64,000 bases of DNA, taken from the NCBI GenBank assembly GCA_943788145.1, contig CALSPD010000008.1:1-64000 (forward strand), written 5' to 3'. The DNA is from an uncultured Flavobacteriales bacterium. GTDB taxonomy: Bacteria; Bacteroidota; Bacteroidia; Flavobacteriales_G; Salibacteraceae. Below the pieces are notes generated by a model. That model was given only the letters and a program-made list of their open reading frames with translations, was not told the origin of the DNA and did no database searches. The first letter of the stretch is position 1; every line of letters starts with the position of its first letter. Position numbers and translations under genes: made by a program. Below are positions 8,923 through 16,310 of this stretch, one piece after another.

Positions 8923-9530
8923 GATGGTAGCTTAATGTAGGGTAGAAGCTTCTCATAAAGTTCGCTTCCACTTTCCTCAATGGTTTTTCCTGTCGTTTTT
9001 ATTTCAATGTGCGGATGCTCAGGCACCTCGAAAGGTGCTGATATACCTGTGAAATTCTTGATTTGTCCTGCTCTTGCTTTAGCATATAAACCTTTCACAT
9101 CACGCTGCTCACATTCTTCAATTGGTGTATTGATGAATACTTCTATGAAATCTGAGTCACCGATTATTTTCTTAGCATGTTCGCGAATTTCTCTTGTAGG
9201 GCTAACAAAACTGTTCACACAAATGATTCCGCAATCCACGAAGAGTTTTGAAACCTCTGCGATTCTTCTTATGTTTTCCGTTCTATCTGCCTCGGCAAAA
9301 CCAAGATCGCTGTTGAGTCCGGTTCGGATATTGTCGCCATCTAGAAGTTTTGAAAACCCGCCTTTACGCAAGAGTTGATTTTCAAGGTGTTTGGCCAAGG
9401 TGGTCTTTCCAGATCCACTCAGGCCTGTCATCCAAACTACGCATGATTTCTGTTTCAGGAAGCTTTCTTTTTCTTCCCGTGAAATGATTTCATCAAATAC
9501 GCTATAAACGTTATTTCCTTCGTCCTTCAT
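8919..9530 (-). CDS. cysC: Adenylylsulfate kinase
   Basis: Phosphorylates APS to PAPS. The 203-residue protein has the Walker A motif GLSGSGKTT (about 36-44), the DGDNIRTGLNSDLGF motif and the FINTPIEECEQRDVKGLYAKAR substrate lid. It is the first gene of the minus-strand sulfate activation operon; a TACATTTG -7-like box lies on the minus strand at 9541-9548. No PAPS reductase or sulfite reductase is in the window, so PAPS could feed either assimilation or sulfation of surface glycans. Confidence 0.95.
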   Translation of the reverse strand: MKDEGNNVYSVFDEIISREEKESFLKQKSCVVWMTGLSGSGKTTLAKHLENQLLRKGGFSKLLDGDNIRTGLNSDLGFAEADRTENIRRIAEVSKLFVDCGIICVNSFVSPTREIREHAKKIIGDSDFIEVFINTPIEECEQRDVKGLYAKARAGQIKNFTGISAPFEVPEHPHIEIKTTGKTIEESGSELYEKLLPYIKLPS

Positions 9531-9586
9531 AAATGAGCGCGCAAATGTAGTTATCCTGCTTTGGATTTTCGATGCATTTGGCTAGT

Positions 9587-9612
9587 TTGCAACAGTCGGT
9601 TTTATAGCTTTG
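9587..9612 (+). promoter_or_regulatory. Possible promoter of deoC
   Basis: A TTG at 9587-9589 and TAGCTTTG at 9605-9612 (15-base spacing) resemble the Bacteroidota sigma-A pattern TTG/TAnnTTTG, a few bases before the deoC ATG. The spacing is shorter than usual. Confidence 0.4.
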
Positions 9613-9619
9613 ATGCCAG

Positions 9620-10534
9620 ATGAATTCAAAAGATTTACTCAAGAATTTTAAGAGCGTCCCCGTTGATTTAATGGGCGTAAACGATCGAATTGCACGGATA
9701 AAAAGTAGAAGTGTTAAGGCGGAAGCAAAGATCCAAGGCCTTCATATGGCTTTGAATATGATTGACTTAACAACGCTAGAAGGTGCTGATACTCCAAATA
9801 AGGTTCGCCAATTGTGCTATAAGGCCATGCATCCCCATGATCAAATGAATGGAATTCCAACCGTAGCAGCAGTTTGTGTTTATCCATCGTTAGTGAGAAC
9901 AGCCAAGGAAGCTTTGAAGGATTCCGATGTGAAAGTGGCCGCTGTTTCAACGTATTTTCCAAGCGGCCAATCTACCCTGGAAATCAAATTGAAAGAGACT
10001 CAATATGCCATTGATGAAGGAGCGGATGAAATCGACATGGTCATATCAAGAAGGGAGTTTCTTCAGGGCAATTATGAATATGTGCTGAGTGAGATTATCT
10101 CGGTTAAGGAGCTTTGTCATAAAAATAATGTTCGATTAAAAGTCATTTTAGAAACCGGTGAAATTGGGTCTTTGGATGAGGTGCGAAAGGCGAGTGATAT
10201 TGCCTTATTAGCCAATCCAGATTTCATCAAGACAAGTACAGGTAAAATTGGTCAAGCGGCCAACATGCAGGTTACTTTAGTCATGTTGCAAGCTATTTGG
10301 GATCATTATCAAAAAACGGGTGTTCAAGTGGGGATGAAACCTGCTGGGGGTATATCCGATGCTAAATCGGCCCTGCATTATTTGATCATGGTTAAGGAAA
10401 TTCTCGGAGCCGAATGGCTGTCTAATAAATGGTTTCGTTTTGGGGCGAGTCGCCTAGCAAATGATGTTTTAATGCAATTGGCAAAACAGGAATCTGGAGT
10501 TTATCAAGCTCCTCAATATTTCTCAAAAGACTAA
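9620..10534 (+). CDS. deoC: Deoxyribose-phosphate aldolase
   Basis: Class I aldolase that splits 2-deoxyribose-5-phosphate into glyceraldehyde-3-phosphate and acetaldehyde in deoxynucleoside breakdown. At 304 residues it is the longer form common in Bacteroidota. The Schiff-base lysine lies in FIKTSTGKIG, with a second active-site lysine in GMKPAGGI; EIDMVISRREF and KVILETGEI are also conserved. The stop is two bases from the aldehyde dehydrogenase start, so acetaldehyde produced here may be oxidised by the next enzyme; that link is inferred from position. Confidence 0.95.
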   Translation: MNSKDLLKNFKSVPVDLMGVNDRIARIKSRSVKAEAKIQGLHMALNMIDLTTLEGADTPNKVRQLCYKAMHPHDQMNGIPTVAAVCVYPSLVRTAKEALKDSDVKVAAVSTYFPSGQSTLEIKLKETQYAIDEGADEIDMVISRREFLQGNYEYVLSEIISVKELCHKNNVRLKVILETGEIGSLDEVRKASDIALLANPDFIKTSTGKIGQAANMQVTLVMLQAIWDHYQKTGVQVGMKPAGGISDAKSALHYLIMVKEILGAEWLSNKWFRFGASRLANDVLMQLAKQESGVYQAPQYFSKD

Positions 10535-10536
10535 AT

Positions 10537-11977
10537 ATGGAAGATTGGAATTTAAGTCCAGCACCTGAAAGTGCTTCGCATATTCAATTCAAAAAGCGAT
10601 ACGACCTCTTTATAAATGGCGCATTTCAAAAGCCAAACTCAAAGCAGTATTTCGCGACTATCAATCCTGCCACCGATGAGGTTATTGCTGAAGTGGCTGA
10701 GGCGAATGCTAATGATGTGGATAGTGCAATGAAGGCTGCTGCCGAAGCGCATAAGTCATGGAGCAAACTTTCCGGAGCCGAACGAGGAAAATACATCTAC
10801 CGCATTGCACGAATGATTCAAGAAAAAAGTCGCGAGTTTGCGGTGATTGAATCATTAGATGGTGGAAAACCAATTCGGGAGTCACGCGATATTGATATTC
10901 CATTGGCTGCCGCACATTTCTTTTATTATGCCGGTTGGGCAGACAAGCTGGAATATGCGTTTCCCATGCGAAAACCTAAATCGCTTGGAGTTGCAGCTCA
11001 AATCATTCCGTGGAATTTCCCCTTATTGATGGCGGCTTGGAAAATTGCCCCAGCATTAGCTTGTGGAAAATACAGTCGTTTTGAAGCCAGCAGAGACAAC
11101 ACCGCTAACGGCATTGAAATTAGCTGAGATTATTCAAGAAGCTGGGTTACCACCGGGCGTGGTTAACATCATTACTGGGGCTGGCTCTACTGGCGCTGAA
11201 ATGTGTGCTCATCCAATCCCAAATAAACTGGCGTTTACAGGTTCTACCGAGGTAGGGAAGTTGATTTACAAAGCCGCCCTAGAAGGGAATAAGAAAGTGA
11301 CCCTAGAATTGGGAGGAAAGGCCGCGAACATCATTTTTGATGATGCACCCATCGAAGCCGCTGTGGAAGGTATAATCAATGGAATTTACTTCAACCAAGG
11401 CCACGTATGTTGCGCTGGTTCGCGTTTGTTTGTTCAAGAAACGGTTTACGAAGAGGTTTTGGCCAAATTGAAGAAACGAATGGACACCTTGATCATAGGT
11501 GATCCAATGGATAAAAACACGGATATAGGAGCGATCAATTCGAAAGATCAACTGCAAACGATAGAACGATATCTGAAAATTGGAAAAGAAGAGGGAGCAG
11601 AGATTTATCAACTAAAATGCAAGCTGCCGAAAAAAGGCAATTGGTGTCCACCAACGCTTTTTACGAATGTGGCTCAAAGCAATCGTATCGCTCAGGAAGA
11701 AATCTTTGGACCCGTTTTGGCCATCCAGACTTTCCGAACGATAGAAGAAGTGATCGATAAGGCGAACAATACTCCTTACGGATTATCGGCCGGTGTTTGG
11801 ACGGATAAAGGATCGAAGATTTTCCAATTAACCAAGGGGCTTAAAGCCGGGGTGGTTTGGGCGAACACCTATAATAAATTTGATCCTACTAGTCCATTTG
11901 GAGGAAATAAAGAAAGCGGTTTTGGTCGCGAGGGTGGAATTCACGGTTTGGAGGCATATTTAAAATTTGAGGGTTAA
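10537..11977 (+). CDS. Aldehyde dehydrogenase (NAD-dependent), interrupted by one-base indel
   Basis: Oxidises an aldehyde, by context acetaldehyde from DeoC, to the acid. The frame breaks at 11067-11070, where GGAAAATACA should read GGAAATACA; removing one A restores LACG-NTVVLKPAETTPL and gives 479 residues, a normal family length. Motifs are QIIPWNFPLLMAAWK (cofactor binding), VTLELGGK (general-base Glu) and FNQGHVCCAGSR (nucleophilic Cys), then EEIFGPV and the C-terminal SPFGGNKESGFGREGG. The first half reads 10537-11127 and the second from about 11063. A sequencing error is likelier than real inactivation because both halves are fully conserved. Confidence 0.9.
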
Positions 11978-11979
11978 CC

Positions 11980-12014
11980 ACAAAGGGCACTAAGGCCTCG
12001 CAAAGGATGCGGAG
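11980..12014 (+). repeat. Left arm of mirrored repeat bracketing the GxxExxY gene
   Basis: Four related hexamers, ACAAAG (11980), ACTAAG (11989), GCAAAG (12000) and GCGGAG (12009), are spaced 9-11-9 bases and end exactly at the GxxExxY ATG. The arm is an imperfect inverted copy of the sequence at 12400-12435. Confidence 0.75.
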
Positions 12015-12398
12015 ATGACGGAAAATGAAATTTCATATATAGTAATTGGATGCGCGATTGACGTGCATAAGGCTCTCGGGCCGGGACTCTTAGAAAACGC
12101 AAATCAGGAGTGTCTTTTTTACAAATTGAAAAAGAAAGGCTTAGTCGTAGAAAAGGAAAAATCCATGCCTCTTGTTTTCGAAGAAGTAAGGCTCGATGTT
12201 GGCTATAGGATTGACCTACTTGTAGAGAATAAATTGATTATTGAATTGAAGAGCGTGGACGTATTAAATGACATTCATTTGGCTCAAGTTCTCACTTATC
12301 TGAAACTAGGTGACTTTCGATTAGGATTACTGATCAATTTTAATGTTGACATATTAAAAAAAGGCATCATGCGTGTTGTCAATAAATTGGAAGATTAA
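12015..12398 (+). CDS. GxxExxY family protein (PD-(D/E)XK nuclease-like)
   Basis: 127 residues. The N-terminal VIGCAIDVHKALGPGLLENANQECL matches the GxxExxY family; the later YRIDLLVENKLIIELKSV has the D...ExK spacing of the PD-(D/E)XK nuclease superfamily (PDDEXK_3). Biochemical function is not established. The gene sits between two aldehyde dehydrogenase genes that are often adjacent in relatives, and mirrored short repeats touch both its start and its stop codon, so it looks like an inserted module. No transposase is present. The ATG at 12015 follows the left repeat directly and leaves no room for a conventional leader. Confidence 0.88.
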   Translation: MTENEISYIVIGCAIDVHKALGPGLLENANQECLFYKLKKKGLVVEKEKSMPLVFEEVRLDVGYRIDLLVENKLIIELKSVDVLNDIHLAQVLTYLKLGDFRLGLLINFNVDILKKGIMRVVNKLED

Positions 12399-12399
12399 A

Positions 12400-12435
12400 C
12401 TCCGCGAAATTTGCGCAATGCTTTGCGCACTTTGC
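12400..12435 (+). repeat. Right arm of mirrored repeat bracketing the GxxExxY gene
   Basis: Hexamers CTCCGC (12400), ATTTGC (12409), CTTTGC (12421) and CTTTGC (12430), spaced 9-12-9, are complementary in order to the left-arm units. The arm begins one base after the stop codon. Confidence 0.75.
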
Positions 12436-12451
12436 GGTAAATAAAAAATGT

Positions 12452-13318
12452 ATGACGAGACTTAATATTCAAAAGACCTACAAGATTTTCATTGGTGGCA
12501 AATTTCCAAGAACGGAGTCCGGTAGATTCTATCCAATCAACAATTCGAAAGGTGAACTCATTGCTAATATGTGTTTATCATCTCGGAAAGACTTTCGAAA
12601 TGCGGTTGTTTCAGCTAGAAAAGCACAATCGGGTTGGGCATCGTTGACGGCCTACAATCGAAGCCAGATATTATATCGCTTGGCAGAAATGCTCGAAACC
12701 AGGCGAGCATCCTTCATCGAAGAAATGTTGCTGCTCGATTTGTCAAAGAAGCAAGCCGAAGCCGAAGTGGATGGCGCCATCGATCGTTTGGTTTATTACG
12801 CTGGTTGGTGCGATAAATACACGGCTGTATTCAGTTCTGTGAATCCAACAGCGAGTGCTCATTTCAATTTTTCAGTGCACGAACCAACGGGTGTTGTGGC
12901 GGCCATCGCTCCAGAACATTCTCCACTATTCGGATTGATTTCTGTTGTAGCACCGGCTATTGCAGGCGGAAATGCTGTGATAGTGCTGGCCTCAGAAACT
13001 AAGGCAACATCATCCATCAGTTTTGCGGAAGTAGTTCAAAATTCAGATGTTCCTGGAGGGGTAATTAACCTGCTCACGGGAAACATGGCTGAACTGGCTC
13101 TACACATGGCTTCTCATATGGATGTAAATGCATTCGTAATCGCCCGAAAAGGACTGGCTGAAGCTTCGAAAATGGCCGTTGTTGAGAATGTGAAGCGCAT
13201 GATCGACTGGACCGGAAAAATGAATATTCAAGATCCGTATAAAATGCTTGAACTTCAAGAAGTGAAAACTACTTGGCATCCTGTGCAGACCAGTGCTACG
13301 GGTGGCGGTGGATATTAA
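12452..13318 (+). CDS. Truncated aldehyde dehydrogenase homologue lacking the catalytic domain
   Basis: 288 residues that align with the N-terminal, cofactor-binding half of aldehyde dehydrogenases: IGGKFPRTESGRFYPI, YYAGWCDKYTAVF, EPTGVVAAIAPEHSPL, and VPGGVINLLTGN. It then runs to a short tail ending in GGGGY. The nucleophilic Cys region and the ELGGK motif are absent and the frame is clean, so this is probably a stable short family member rather than a broken copy; similar short partners next to a full ALDH and deoC are known in Bacteroidota and Actinobacteria. It may be a structural or regulatory subunit of a hetero-oligomer, which is inference. Confidence 0.8.
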   Translation: MTRLNIQKTYKIFIGGKFPRTESGRFYPINNSKGELIANMCLSSRKDFRNAVVSARKAQSGWASLTAYNRSQILYRLAEMLETRRASFIEEMLLLDLSKKQAEAEVDGAIDRLVYYAGWCDKYTAVFSSVNPTASAHFNFSVHEPTGVVAAIAPEHSPLFGLISVVAPAIAGGNAVIVLASETKATSSISFAEVVQNSDVPGGVINLLTGNMAELALHMASHMDVNAFVIARKGLAEASKMAVVENVKRMIDWTGKMNIQDPYKMLELQEVKTTWHPVQTSATGGGGY

Positions 13319-13406
13319 CTGAAACGGAACGATTTCCCATAGGTAAATATGCCCATGCCTTTTTGACCATTCCACTGATTTAGATTAAACTTCTATCCTT
13401 GCACCC

Positions 13407-14189
13407 ATGAAATTTGAACGACTTTTAATTGAGGCCTCTTTGAAGGCAGGAGCTGAAATCATGAAGGTGTATACCCGTGATTTTGATGTGGAAACGAAGG
13501 ATGACAAGAGCCCTTTAACCGAAGCCGACAAAAACAGCCATTTGGCCATCATGTCTTTTTTAGAACAAACGGGACTGCCGATTTTAAGTGAAGAAGGCAA
13601 GCACATGGATTATTCTGGGCGAAAAAGCTGGAATCAGTTTTGGTTGGTTGATCCATTAGATGGAACAAAAGAGTTTGTAAAAAAGAATGGTGAGTTCACC
13701 GTCAATATCGCTTTGATTGAAAATGGATTGCCCATTTACGGCATTATTTACGCCCCCGTTTTAAAGAAACTGTTTGTTGGAAACGTGGGTCACGAAGCTT
13801 GGATAGCGGAAAACGTAGCAACCGATACATCGGTCGATTCCATTCTTGCAAGCAAGATTTCAATTCCAAAAACAAAACCTTCATCACCTTATATCGTTGT
13901 TGCGAGCAGGAGTCATTTTAGCCCTGAAACTCAAGAATATGTGGATGAGCTGACAAAAACAAAGGGTGACATTGACTTTGCGTCAATGGGTTCGAGTCTT
14001 AAAATTTGCTTGGTTGCCGAAGGTGCAGCTGATATTTACCCTCGATTTGGACCTACGATGGAGTGGGACACGGGAGCTGGACATGCCATAGCCAAAGCTG
14101 CCGGAAAAATGGTGACGGATCATGCAACTGGGAAGGAAATGCGTTACAATAAAGAAAACCTGTTGAACAACTGGTTTATAGTCGAATAA
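13407..14189 (+). CDS. cysQ: 3'(2'),5'-bisphosphate nucleotidase CysQ
   Basis: Mg-dependent phosphatase of the inositol monophosphatase fold; it degrades PAP left over when PAPS is used, which links it to the cysCDN genes 4 kb away. The 260 residues show the metal-binding DKSPLTEADKNSH, EEGKHMDYSGR, WLVDPLDGTKEFV and the C-terminal MEWDTGAGHAI motif. It is convergent with the exporter ATPase gene, with two bases between the stops. Confidence 0.92.
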   Translation: MKFERLLIEASLKAGAEIMKVYTRDFDVETKDDKSPLTEADKNSHLAIMSFLEQTGLPILSEEGKHMDYSGRKSWNQFWLVDPLDGTKEFVKKNGEFTVNIALIENGLPIYGIIYAPVLKKLFVGNVGHEAWIAENVATDTSVDSILASKISIPKTKPSSPYIVVASRSHFSPETQEYVDELTKTKGDIDFASMGSSLKICLVAEGAADIYPRFGPTMEWDTGAGHAIAKAAGKMVTDHATGKEMRYNKENLLNNWFIVE

Positions 14190-14191
14190 AG

Positions 14192-14869
14192 CTAGTTTTC
14201 GATTTTACCATCTCGCATTCTAACAATTCTTTCGGCTCGTTGAGCCACTTCTTCTTCGTGCGTCACCATAATGATGGTGTTTCCAGCTTGATGCAATTCA
14301 TAAAATAGATCTAGAATTTCCTCCGAAGTTTTTGAATCGAGGTTTCCTGTTGGTTCATCTGCTAAAATGATGGATGGATTATTAATCAAAGCGCGGGCGA
14401 TGGCGACACGTTGGCGCTGACCTCCGGAAAGTTCGTTAGGTTTATGATGTCCACGATCGCTCAGTCCTACGCGATTGATCACGCGTTGAGCGGCTTCGAT
14501 GCGTTCGGTTTTTGACTTTCCAGCATAGATAAGCGGTAGCGCCACATTTTCTAATGCCGTGTACTTAGGCAACAAATTGAACGTTTGGAAAACAAAACCG
14601 ATCTCCGCATTCCGAATTTCGGCTAATTGTTCGTCATCGGCTCCACTTACATTTAGGCCATTCAACACATATTCACCGCAAGTTGCGGTGTCCAAGCAAC
14701 CTAAAATGTTCATTAACGTGGATTTACCAGATCCCGATGGCCCCATCAAAGCAATGAACTCACCTTTATTGAATTCTAAGTTAAGCCCTTTTAAAACCTC
14801 GACACTGAAAGCGCCCATTTCATAGGTTTTGCCGACCTCAGTTAGCGATATGATGGGATGGTTAGTCAA
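14192..14869 (-). CDS. ABC transporter ATP-binding protein (MacB/LolD-like)
   Basis: 225-residue ATPase that powers the permease encoded upstream. Walker [10 protein letters not shown] (about 43-51), Q-loop [10 protein letters not shown], signature [15 protein letters not shown] and Walker [13 protein letters not shown] are all intact. It is the last gene of a four-gene minus-strand unit (adaptor, permease, TolC, ATPase) and overlaps the TolC gene by eight bases. The substrate is not visible from sequence. Confidence 0.93.
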
Positions 14870-16310
14870 TACTTAAAGGTTGATTTGTTTTAAAATCATA
14901 ATGTGTGAGCTTTCGAATTTCGAAATAAGCAGCCCAATAGTTGTTGAGTGTAGCCACATAGTCCATACGGGCTTCCGTTTTTCGAGCTACAGCACTGTTC
15001 AGTTCGAGTAAATCAATTTTACCAATCATGAATCGTTGCCGAGTCACTTCATAACCCTTGTTAGCCACTTCATCGGCTCTACGCGCAATATCCACTTGGT
15101 TTTGAAGTAAAATGAAATTGCTGACCCGTTCAAAAACAAGTTGCTCCAAAGCAATTTGGTTAAGGCTAAGTTGGTCAGACAATATCTCTCGATTGAGCTG
15201 CGCTAAGTCCGTTCGGGTTTTATTCAGGCCAAATTGATACAAGGGAACATCGAGCTCAACTACAAGGAGCTGCCGGTCTTGCGTATTATTGATCACATCG
15301 CTTAGATGAGCTCCGCTTTGAGTTAAGCCATAGCTTCCGAAAAGGCTTACGGTAGGGCGTGTGTTAGCTCTAGATCGCGCAATTTCTCGTTCGGCATCTA
15401 ACAGCTGCAACTCATAATTATCGAAATCCGACATGTTTTCACGAGCAAGTAGCAGTGCTTGTTCAATGCTTACATCTACCTTGTTGATGGTAGTGTTTGG
15501 AGTCGGGTTTGCATCGCCAAGGTCATCGTTGAGGAATTGCTCCATACGCATTTTAGTTAGCCGCAAGTTGAATTCCGTTTGTTGGAGGCTGATATCTGAA
15601 TTCAGGGCGTTGAGCTCTGCTTGGAGTAAATCGTTCTCAGCAATTTTACCCATTTCAAATCGCCCTTTGCTGATCTGAAAGATCGTGTCGTTGTGGTTTT
15701 TAAAAATAAGGGCGAGCTCATATTGCATTTCAGCCGTAAGCCAGTTGTAATAATACCGAACAGCTTGAATAGAAACATCTTCCTTGTTTTCGAGGTTTCG
15801 TTGTTCGGCCACTTGAAGCCGCAATGGTTCAGTTTTTCGCGACCATTTATACGGATTAAAACCAAAGAGCGGTTGAGAAAGTCCGAAGCTGACTGGATTT
15901 CCCAGATAGGTAGTGTTCGCATTGTTTCCAAACAAATCAATGCGCTGTAAACTCGGATTGAAATACACATTACCACCTGTCCATATGAGCGGTTGATTGA
16001 TGGTTAAACCAGCGTTGCTAAACATTTGACTTCGTTGAACAAATCCGTCCGTTCCATCGGGTTTTGTGATTTTATCTAACGATCTATTTAAATTAGGCAG
16101 CGTAGCGTTGATGCCAATAGATGGCAACATCGATTTGTAAAAGATGTCGTAATTGAATTTGCTTGCAGCAAAATTCGAAGCATACATCCGACTTTGGGTG
16201 CTCTGTTTTTGAGCCAGTTCAATCACTTCTTCCAACGAAATGTAAGTCTGAGAATACCCCAACAAAGGCAAGTAAAAGACCAGCGAAACAATTGATATAA
16301 TCTTATTCAT
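14862..16310 (-). CDS. TolC family outer-membrane efflux protein
   Basis: Outer-membrane exit duct of the tripartite exporter. Starting at the ATG at 16310 gives a signal peptide ([20 protein letters not shown]) followed by the duplicated helical/strand repeats typical of the family; an upstream in-frame start would add 19 residues without signal-peptide features. The mature protein is about 460 residues. Its start overlaps the permease stop by eight bases. Placing the duct between permease and ATPase is a common layout in Bacteroidota. Confidence 0.9.

Follow-up and report, generated by a model that had tools for sequence, protein, structure and literature searches.

A GxxExxY nuclease gene between matched inverted arms looks like a very small mobile element of a so far undescribed kind

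In REPIN/RAYT systems (REPtrons, TIRtrons), a gene lies between inverted copies of a short repeat, and the same repeat also occurs without the gene in intergenic regions, as pairs or as singletons (PMC3733652). Here we describe a mobile-element-like nuclease cassette of ~465 bp, found in the window (the whole 64-kb stretch of Bacteroidota DNA analysed). Like REPIN/RAYT, it has a nuclease gene flanked by inverted repeats that are also dispersed without the gene, and its repeat families are specific to each element. However, RAYT is an HUH tyrosine transposase that acts on single-stranded hairpins with a GTAG tag, whereas the cassette protein is of the predicted PD-(D/E)XK type. In addition, the repeat of REPIN/RAYT is a hairpin, whereas each arm of the cassette is a direct array of ~7-bp CRCRRAG-type units, and the arms that were read showed no GTAG tag. 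The cassette therefore does not belong to REPIN/RAYT, which relies on an HUH transposase and GTAG hairpins; REPIN/RAYT is the closest working analogy.

Two other kinds of element share features with the cassette. MITEs and IS elements also have terminal inverted repeats, empty sites and internal-deletion derivatives. However, the cassette has no DDE/DEDD transposase, and its arms are iterated words. The 23S rRNA intervening sequences (IVS) with an S23 ORF are likewise inserts of ~430 bp with one small ORF and inverted repeats, and in Coxiella the tandem heptamers ahead of the S23 ORF have already been noted (PMC4990558). Nevertheless, these IVS sit in rRNA and encode another protein, whereas the cassette lies between two aldehyde dehydrogenase (ALDH) genes and a wobble test gave no support for RNA pairing of its arms. 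The open-access literature, searched with the family name, the accessions and the arm sequences, returned neither a function nor arms for GxxExxY. The cassette looks like a very small mobile element of a kind so far undescribed.

The earlier note, made from the sequence alone, had placed left-arm hexamers ACAAAG, ACTAAG, GCAAAG and GCGGAG at 11980, 11989, 12000 and 12009, and right-arm hexamers CTCCGC, ATTTGC, CTTTGC and CTTTGC at 12400, 12409, 12421 and 12430. All of them were found at these positions, and the spacings of 9-11-9 on the left and 9-12-9 on the right, in opposite orientation, were also correct. The ATG, at 12015, follows directly on the last base of the left arm (12014), while a single base separates the TAA, whose last letter is 12398, from the right arm, which begins at 12400. 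Thus, the gene of the window copy is indeed exactly bracketed; as a rule for the family this does not hold, since the arms of homologues often lie tens of bases from the codons. Some homologues have outward-facing arms or lack canonical arms. The outer ends of the element also mirror each other (TTAACC... on the left, ...GCGGTAA on the right), and with these ends counted in, the element extends from about 11974 to 12441, slightly beyond the 11980-12435 first proposed. The left arm (11974..12014, plus strand) comprises the TTAACC end, in which TAA serves as stop codon to the upstream ALDH, followed by CACAAAG, CACTAAG, CGCAAAG and TGCGGAG. The inverted right arm (12400..12441, minus strand) has the minus-strand units ACCGCAAAG, CGCAAAG, CGCAAAT and CGCGGAG, so that each arm consists of four units of ~7 bp. 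The doublet SRCRAAGNNSRCRAAG, with at most one mismatch, has 4 matches in 64 kb against 0.83 expected, a number reached in no shuffle, and its two best matches in the window are the two arms, in opposite orientation. A generic repeat finder did not pick up the arms because their units are degenerate.

The gene between the arms (12015..12398, plus strand, 127 aa) was assigned to the GxxExxY family (TIGR04256 / PF13366, PDDEXK_3), a family named from its motif only, by profile matches. The protein is a full-length member: it matched TIGR04256 over positions 1-116 of 116 (E=6.4e-40, 136.2 bits against a curated cut-off of 35) and PF13366 with E=5.4e-39 (133.6 bits, cut-off 22). In an alignment of 81 homologues, G24, E27, D67, K79, Q91 and N108 are invariant, and E77 and Y95 are conserved in more than 90%. 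The window copy keeps E27, D67, E77, K79, Q91 and Y95. In the name motif G-x-x-E-x-x-Y it retains G24 and E27, and Y30, also conserved in more than 90% of the 81 sequences, is replaced by N. The AlphaFold (AF2) model reached a pLDDT of 95, and the nearest solved fold was Cas4 SSO0001 (4ic1; Foldseek E 2.5e-3, Z 9.8 over 99 residues), with phage-type exonucleases next in the Foldseek ranking; a sequence search found no solved structure of a homologue. The D...ExK residues plus the QxxxY signature in the alignment, together with the RecB/Cas4-type fold of the model, bear out the PD-(D/E)XK-like motifs that had been suspected, and with high confidence we predict a minimal RecB/Cas4-type PD-(D/E)XK nuclease. 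The core fold and this residue set are shared with Cas4 and other RecB-type nucleases. However, Cas4 has ~200 residues, so that the window protein is about 60% of its length; the four Fe-S cysteines of Cas4 are absent (the window protein has two cysteines, none of them in conserved columns), and so is the CRISPR context at this locus.

The dN/dS values were 0.02-0.08 in 10 of 11 measurable homologue pairs, so the protein is under purifying selection. GxxExxY genes were present in 151 of 295 sampled Bacteroidota genomes, often in multiple copies; the window's genome has a single copy. A phage origin was rejected, for neither viral contigs nor phage sequences contained a relative; plasmid relatives amounted to eight records only, each with less than 60% identity. 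An assignment to known defence genes was also rejected, as PADLOC gave only weak Cas4 matches (E 0.008 and 0.019).

The results for the insertion site showed that the gene splits a deoC-ALDH-ALDH group, as had been claimed. The upstream host gene is ALDH 1 (C-terminal part, 11063..11977, plus strand) and the downstream one is ALDH 2 (12452..13318, plus strand, 288 aa), which adjoins ALDH 1 in most congeners with only 4-16 bp between them. In addition, the upstream ALDH is present as two overlapping ORFs (10537-11127 and 11063-11977), and this split (overlap 11063-11127) suggests a frameshift of one base or a fault in the assembly. The ALDH-ALDH gap is clean (4-16 bp) in seven species of the window's genus, carries remnants of arm ends in two congeners (e.g. 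GATTAACCGAAATGGGCGCAAGGTTTTGCGGTAAAA in G004), and is occupied by a full cassette in three congeners, window included, whose GxxExxY lineages are unlike. Furthermore, the gap is shorter than 13 bp in nine more genomes of the same family. Arms and gene were gained and lost together at this site. The GxxExxY protein at the same site in the congener G009 is only 58% identical to that of the window, whereas the flanking ALDHs are 81% and 88% identical; therefore, more than one lineage entered the ALDH junction. The window's protein is closer to occupants of this site from another genus (72%) and from beyond the order (66%). The cassette has been inserted into the narrow space that separates one gene's stop codon from the start codon that follows. 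Target duplications were looked for at the ALDH site, at a Flavobacterium site and at a gene-less element of genus g31; the available empty and filled sites were too diverged for a duplication or an exact cut point to be read.

We then compared 139 homologous GxxExxY loci with readable flanks against 1972 control windows. Inward arms were present on both sides in 70/139 loci and outward arms on both sides in 14/139, while 10 of the 1972 control windows (0.5%) had an arm on either strand. The possibility that homologues lack conserved arms is therefore contradicted by these 70 loci. Inverted matching of the flanks, scored without any motif, exceeded the shuffle threshold in 96/139 loci against 1/139 shuffles. 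The arms vary widely among loci (CGCAAAG, CACAGAG, CACGGAG, CACAGATT and others), and where CRCRRAG arms are missing, the flanks often carry matched arms built from different words (CACGGAG, CACAGATT, CGAATT-type, TTCGTGAAAATTCG). The two commonest spacing triples were 9-12-9 and 9-11-9. Furthermore, left arms vary in step with right arms from locus to locus (rho 0.83 and 0.79). In 41 gene-less pairs, which were picked by hand from the pairs of the repeat-rich genomes described below, with near-identical copies left out, the left-right match was better than in any of 5000 within-genome permutations. The arms are a property of the GxxExxY family. The arm type tracks the GxxExxY protein tree (13 changes, where shuffles gave 29.5 and never fewer than 19), a result to which species relatedness and linkage contribute. 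Since the arm type follows the protein tree, it is plausible that the arms are the putative binding site of the protein itself. As for placement, the left arm begins a median of 13 nt after the upstream stop codon, the right arm ends a median of 17.5 nt ahead of the next ATG, and both neighbours lie on the strand of the GxxExxY gene in 89/121 loci.

A second insertion site was found in Flavobacterium, where, depending on the species, the junction contains a full cassette, a gene-less CACAAAG pair or a clean gap. It also accommodates a gene-less pair of another word (CGCGGATT/ACGGATT). Gene-less arm pairs of an unrelated word (CGCGGATTTAACGGATT) were seen at this junction in L263-L265, L268, L270 and L274. 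A GIY-YIG gene (94 aa; PF01541, E=4e-16) also occupies the Flavobacterium junction that GxxExxY cassettes use elsewhere; it lies in L275 at ~2186-2534 of the reverse complement (minus strand), between inverted arms CATGCTGAAC...TTCAGCATC.

Gene-less arms occur outside this junction as well. In the window's genome, three four-unit arms stand alone, without an adjacent gene. The earlier note would have been undermined by arms widespread without the gene; arms without the gene do exist, but overwhelmingly in genomes that carry it. Among 296 Bacteroidota genomes, at least five doublet repeats were found in 69 GxxExxY-positive and 3 negative genomes. This correlation is not an artefact of the genes' own arms: after subtraction of four doublets per gene, the repeat was still concentrated in gene-positive genomes (28/151 against 3/144 negative ones, p=2e-6). 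Thirty GxxExxY-positive genomes lack the canonical repeat altogether, in part owing to the use of other unit families. Approximately 74 gene-less palindromic pairs were found in 13 of 16 repeat-rich genomes, and in these 16 genomes no gene-less pair had the reversed pattern. Deletion derivatives were also found. In L065 (619-1620), a full cassette is followed by two tandem copies that join the start of the gene to its end and keep the arms. These internally deleted copies are MITE-like, and the spacers between copies are nearly constant. L044 and L020 contain gene-less two-arm modules. Tandem arrangement was also seen on contig C1 of G330 (494334-494739), where arm doublets recur every 185 bp.

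In genus g31, the gene-less pairs sit inside a conventional MITE with 19-bp terminal repeats, and their dispersal is thus probably due to another transposase, that of an IS. The MITE, ~150 bp long with 19-bp ends TAGAAGCCATCTCAAAAAT and a gene-less arm pair inside, was seen at L292, L302, L306, L310 and L313, all in one genome, and at L186, L293, L295, L297 and L299. Its outer ends are constant, and the inner arm sequences vary by species. Meanwhile, five species of one genus (L284-L288) have kept a gene-less arm pair at the same orthologous intergenic position, and in L287 both outer units have changed together (AACTACAAAG / CTTTGTAGTT), which looks compensatory.

The proposal of a mobile nuclease module is well supported: one and the same site is found empty, scarred or filled, with several lineages among its occupants, and there are also dispersed gene-less arm pairs, deletion derivatives and a RecB/Cas4-type PD-(D/E)XK core. 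To our mind the best explanation, with a probability of roughly 0.55, is a REPIN/RAYT-like mobile cassette whose unrelated nuclease acts on its own arms and drives the movement. The GxxExxY protein would recognise the repeated words within its own arms; a placing of two units over roughly two turns of the helix would account for the 9-11/12-9 rhythm. It would then nick or cut at the arms, and host repair or replication would copy the arms with the gene, or the arms alone, into short intergenic gaps. The cassette would thus work like the REPIN/RAYT system, with a RecB/Cas4-like nuclease replacing the HUH tyrosine transposase, and the left-right matching would persist since arms could move together only as a matched pair. 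Points against this reading are the MITE of genus g31, the single gene and three lone arms of the window's genome, and the 30 gene-positive genomes that lack a canonical repeat.

Other explanations have to be weighed against this one. The arms might be recombination or MITE substrates that are moved by host recombination or by IS transposases in trans, the nuclease being cargo with another job, e.g. DNA processing or defence. The g31 pairs, which belong to a MITE with conventional 19-bp TIRs, are in line with such a role; in addition, the constant-spacer tandem arrays in L065 and L044 fit unequal recombination, and the nearest structures are Cas4 and exonucleases, with no transposase among them. 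However, we consider a pure cargo role unlikely, in view of the agreement between arm type and the GxxExxY tree, the concentration of the repeats in gene-carrying genomes, the fact that GxxExxY is the sole ORF between the arms, and the PADLOC defence models, which gave nothing beyond weak Cas4 matches. Alternatively, the nuclease could cut arm pairs that lack the gene, or sites resembling arms, and the gene would be inserted when the break is repaired with a full cassette as template. The arms would then be the homology for repair, and the arm pairs would be targets, not products. Small PD-(D/E)XK homing enzymes are known, the arms offer ready homology, and gene-less pairs and full cassettes share an orthologous junction in different Flavobacterium species. 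Nevertheless, many empty sites are armless (the 4-bp gaps of G001, G006 and G012), the deletion derivatives of L065 keep both gene ends, which points to a direction from full to empty, and the arm pairs of a foreign word at the same Flavobacterium junction (L263-L265) are left unexplained. Homing of this kind is therefore quite improbable.

It is also conceivable that the element functions in RNA, the arms pairing in the transcript so that the insert is processed out of the operon mRNA and insertion into an operon is harmless; the arms would then serve RNA folding and not DNA movement. RNase III removes the intervening sequences of 23S rRNA. When folded as RNA, the window element is predicted to pair its arms (z -3.2), and the cassettes are co-directional in gene runs, as seen in the 89/121 loci with both neighbours on the same strand. 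Furthermore, S23 IVS ORFs of Coxiella combine upstream tandem heptamers with RNase III excision (PMC4990558). However, arm mismatches have no G-U bias in the sense RNA: 80 were wobble-type and 115 were non-pairing transitions, the opposite of the prediction. Selection for an RNA stem was rejected on this negative wobble test. Moreover, the dispersed lone arms and the recurrent insertion would be unexplained, which makes an RNA-level element very unlikely. A known RNA element was also rejected, as no Rfam match was found within 9000-15000 of the window. Finally, the arms might be ordinary intergenic repeats, such as terminators or operators, or chance matches beside an unremarkable gene. The gene-less palindromes of Flavobacterium are terminator-like, and single arms are frequent in some genomes. 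However, 50% of the loci have inward arms on both sides against arms in 0.5% of control windows, and arms and gene are gained and lost together, so that this reading is hardly credible; chance itself is ruled out by the shuffles, the control windows and the homologues.

If GxxExxY proteins are the enzymes of a REPIN-like system, this would explain a very common intergenic repeat family. It would also mean that REP-like elements arose a second time independently, around a Cas4/RecB-type nuclease, and the cassette, at ~465 bp, would rank with the smallest known mobile modules. With empty, scarred and filled sites at hand, the idea of a mobile cassette can be tested directly.

A wider class can be envisaged, although we hold it tentatively and somewhat doubt it. 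The GxxExxY cassettes would then be one branch of an unrecognised class of tiny single-ORF mobile elements with a shared mechanism of insertion and of arm homogenisation. Its members would have a single ORF of ~95-130 codons from unrelated families (PD-(D/E)XK GxxExxY, S23 and GIY-YIG) between inverted arms, and every element would target the gap from a stop codon to the next start codon. The arms of GxxExxY and S23 elements would be arrays of 7-12-bp words, different between elements and matched within them. The S23 parallel bears on the old question of the origin of 23S rRNA intervening sequences.

Armed S23 genes occur in the same genomes as GxxExxY. The idea that four-helix-bundle genes are another cargo of CRCARAG arms was rejected, as 0/28 had both arms. 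Meanwhile, among the S23-type four-helix-bundle genes (TIGR02436, L217-L246), 25/28 had inverted arms above the threshold, against 0/28 control windows. These arms consist of tandem 7-8-bp words, with a period of mostly 7-8 by inspection, and the words are wholly different between elements (GTACTAA, GGTTGAT, TTATGAG, AAGCTTT, CTGAGGTT and others).
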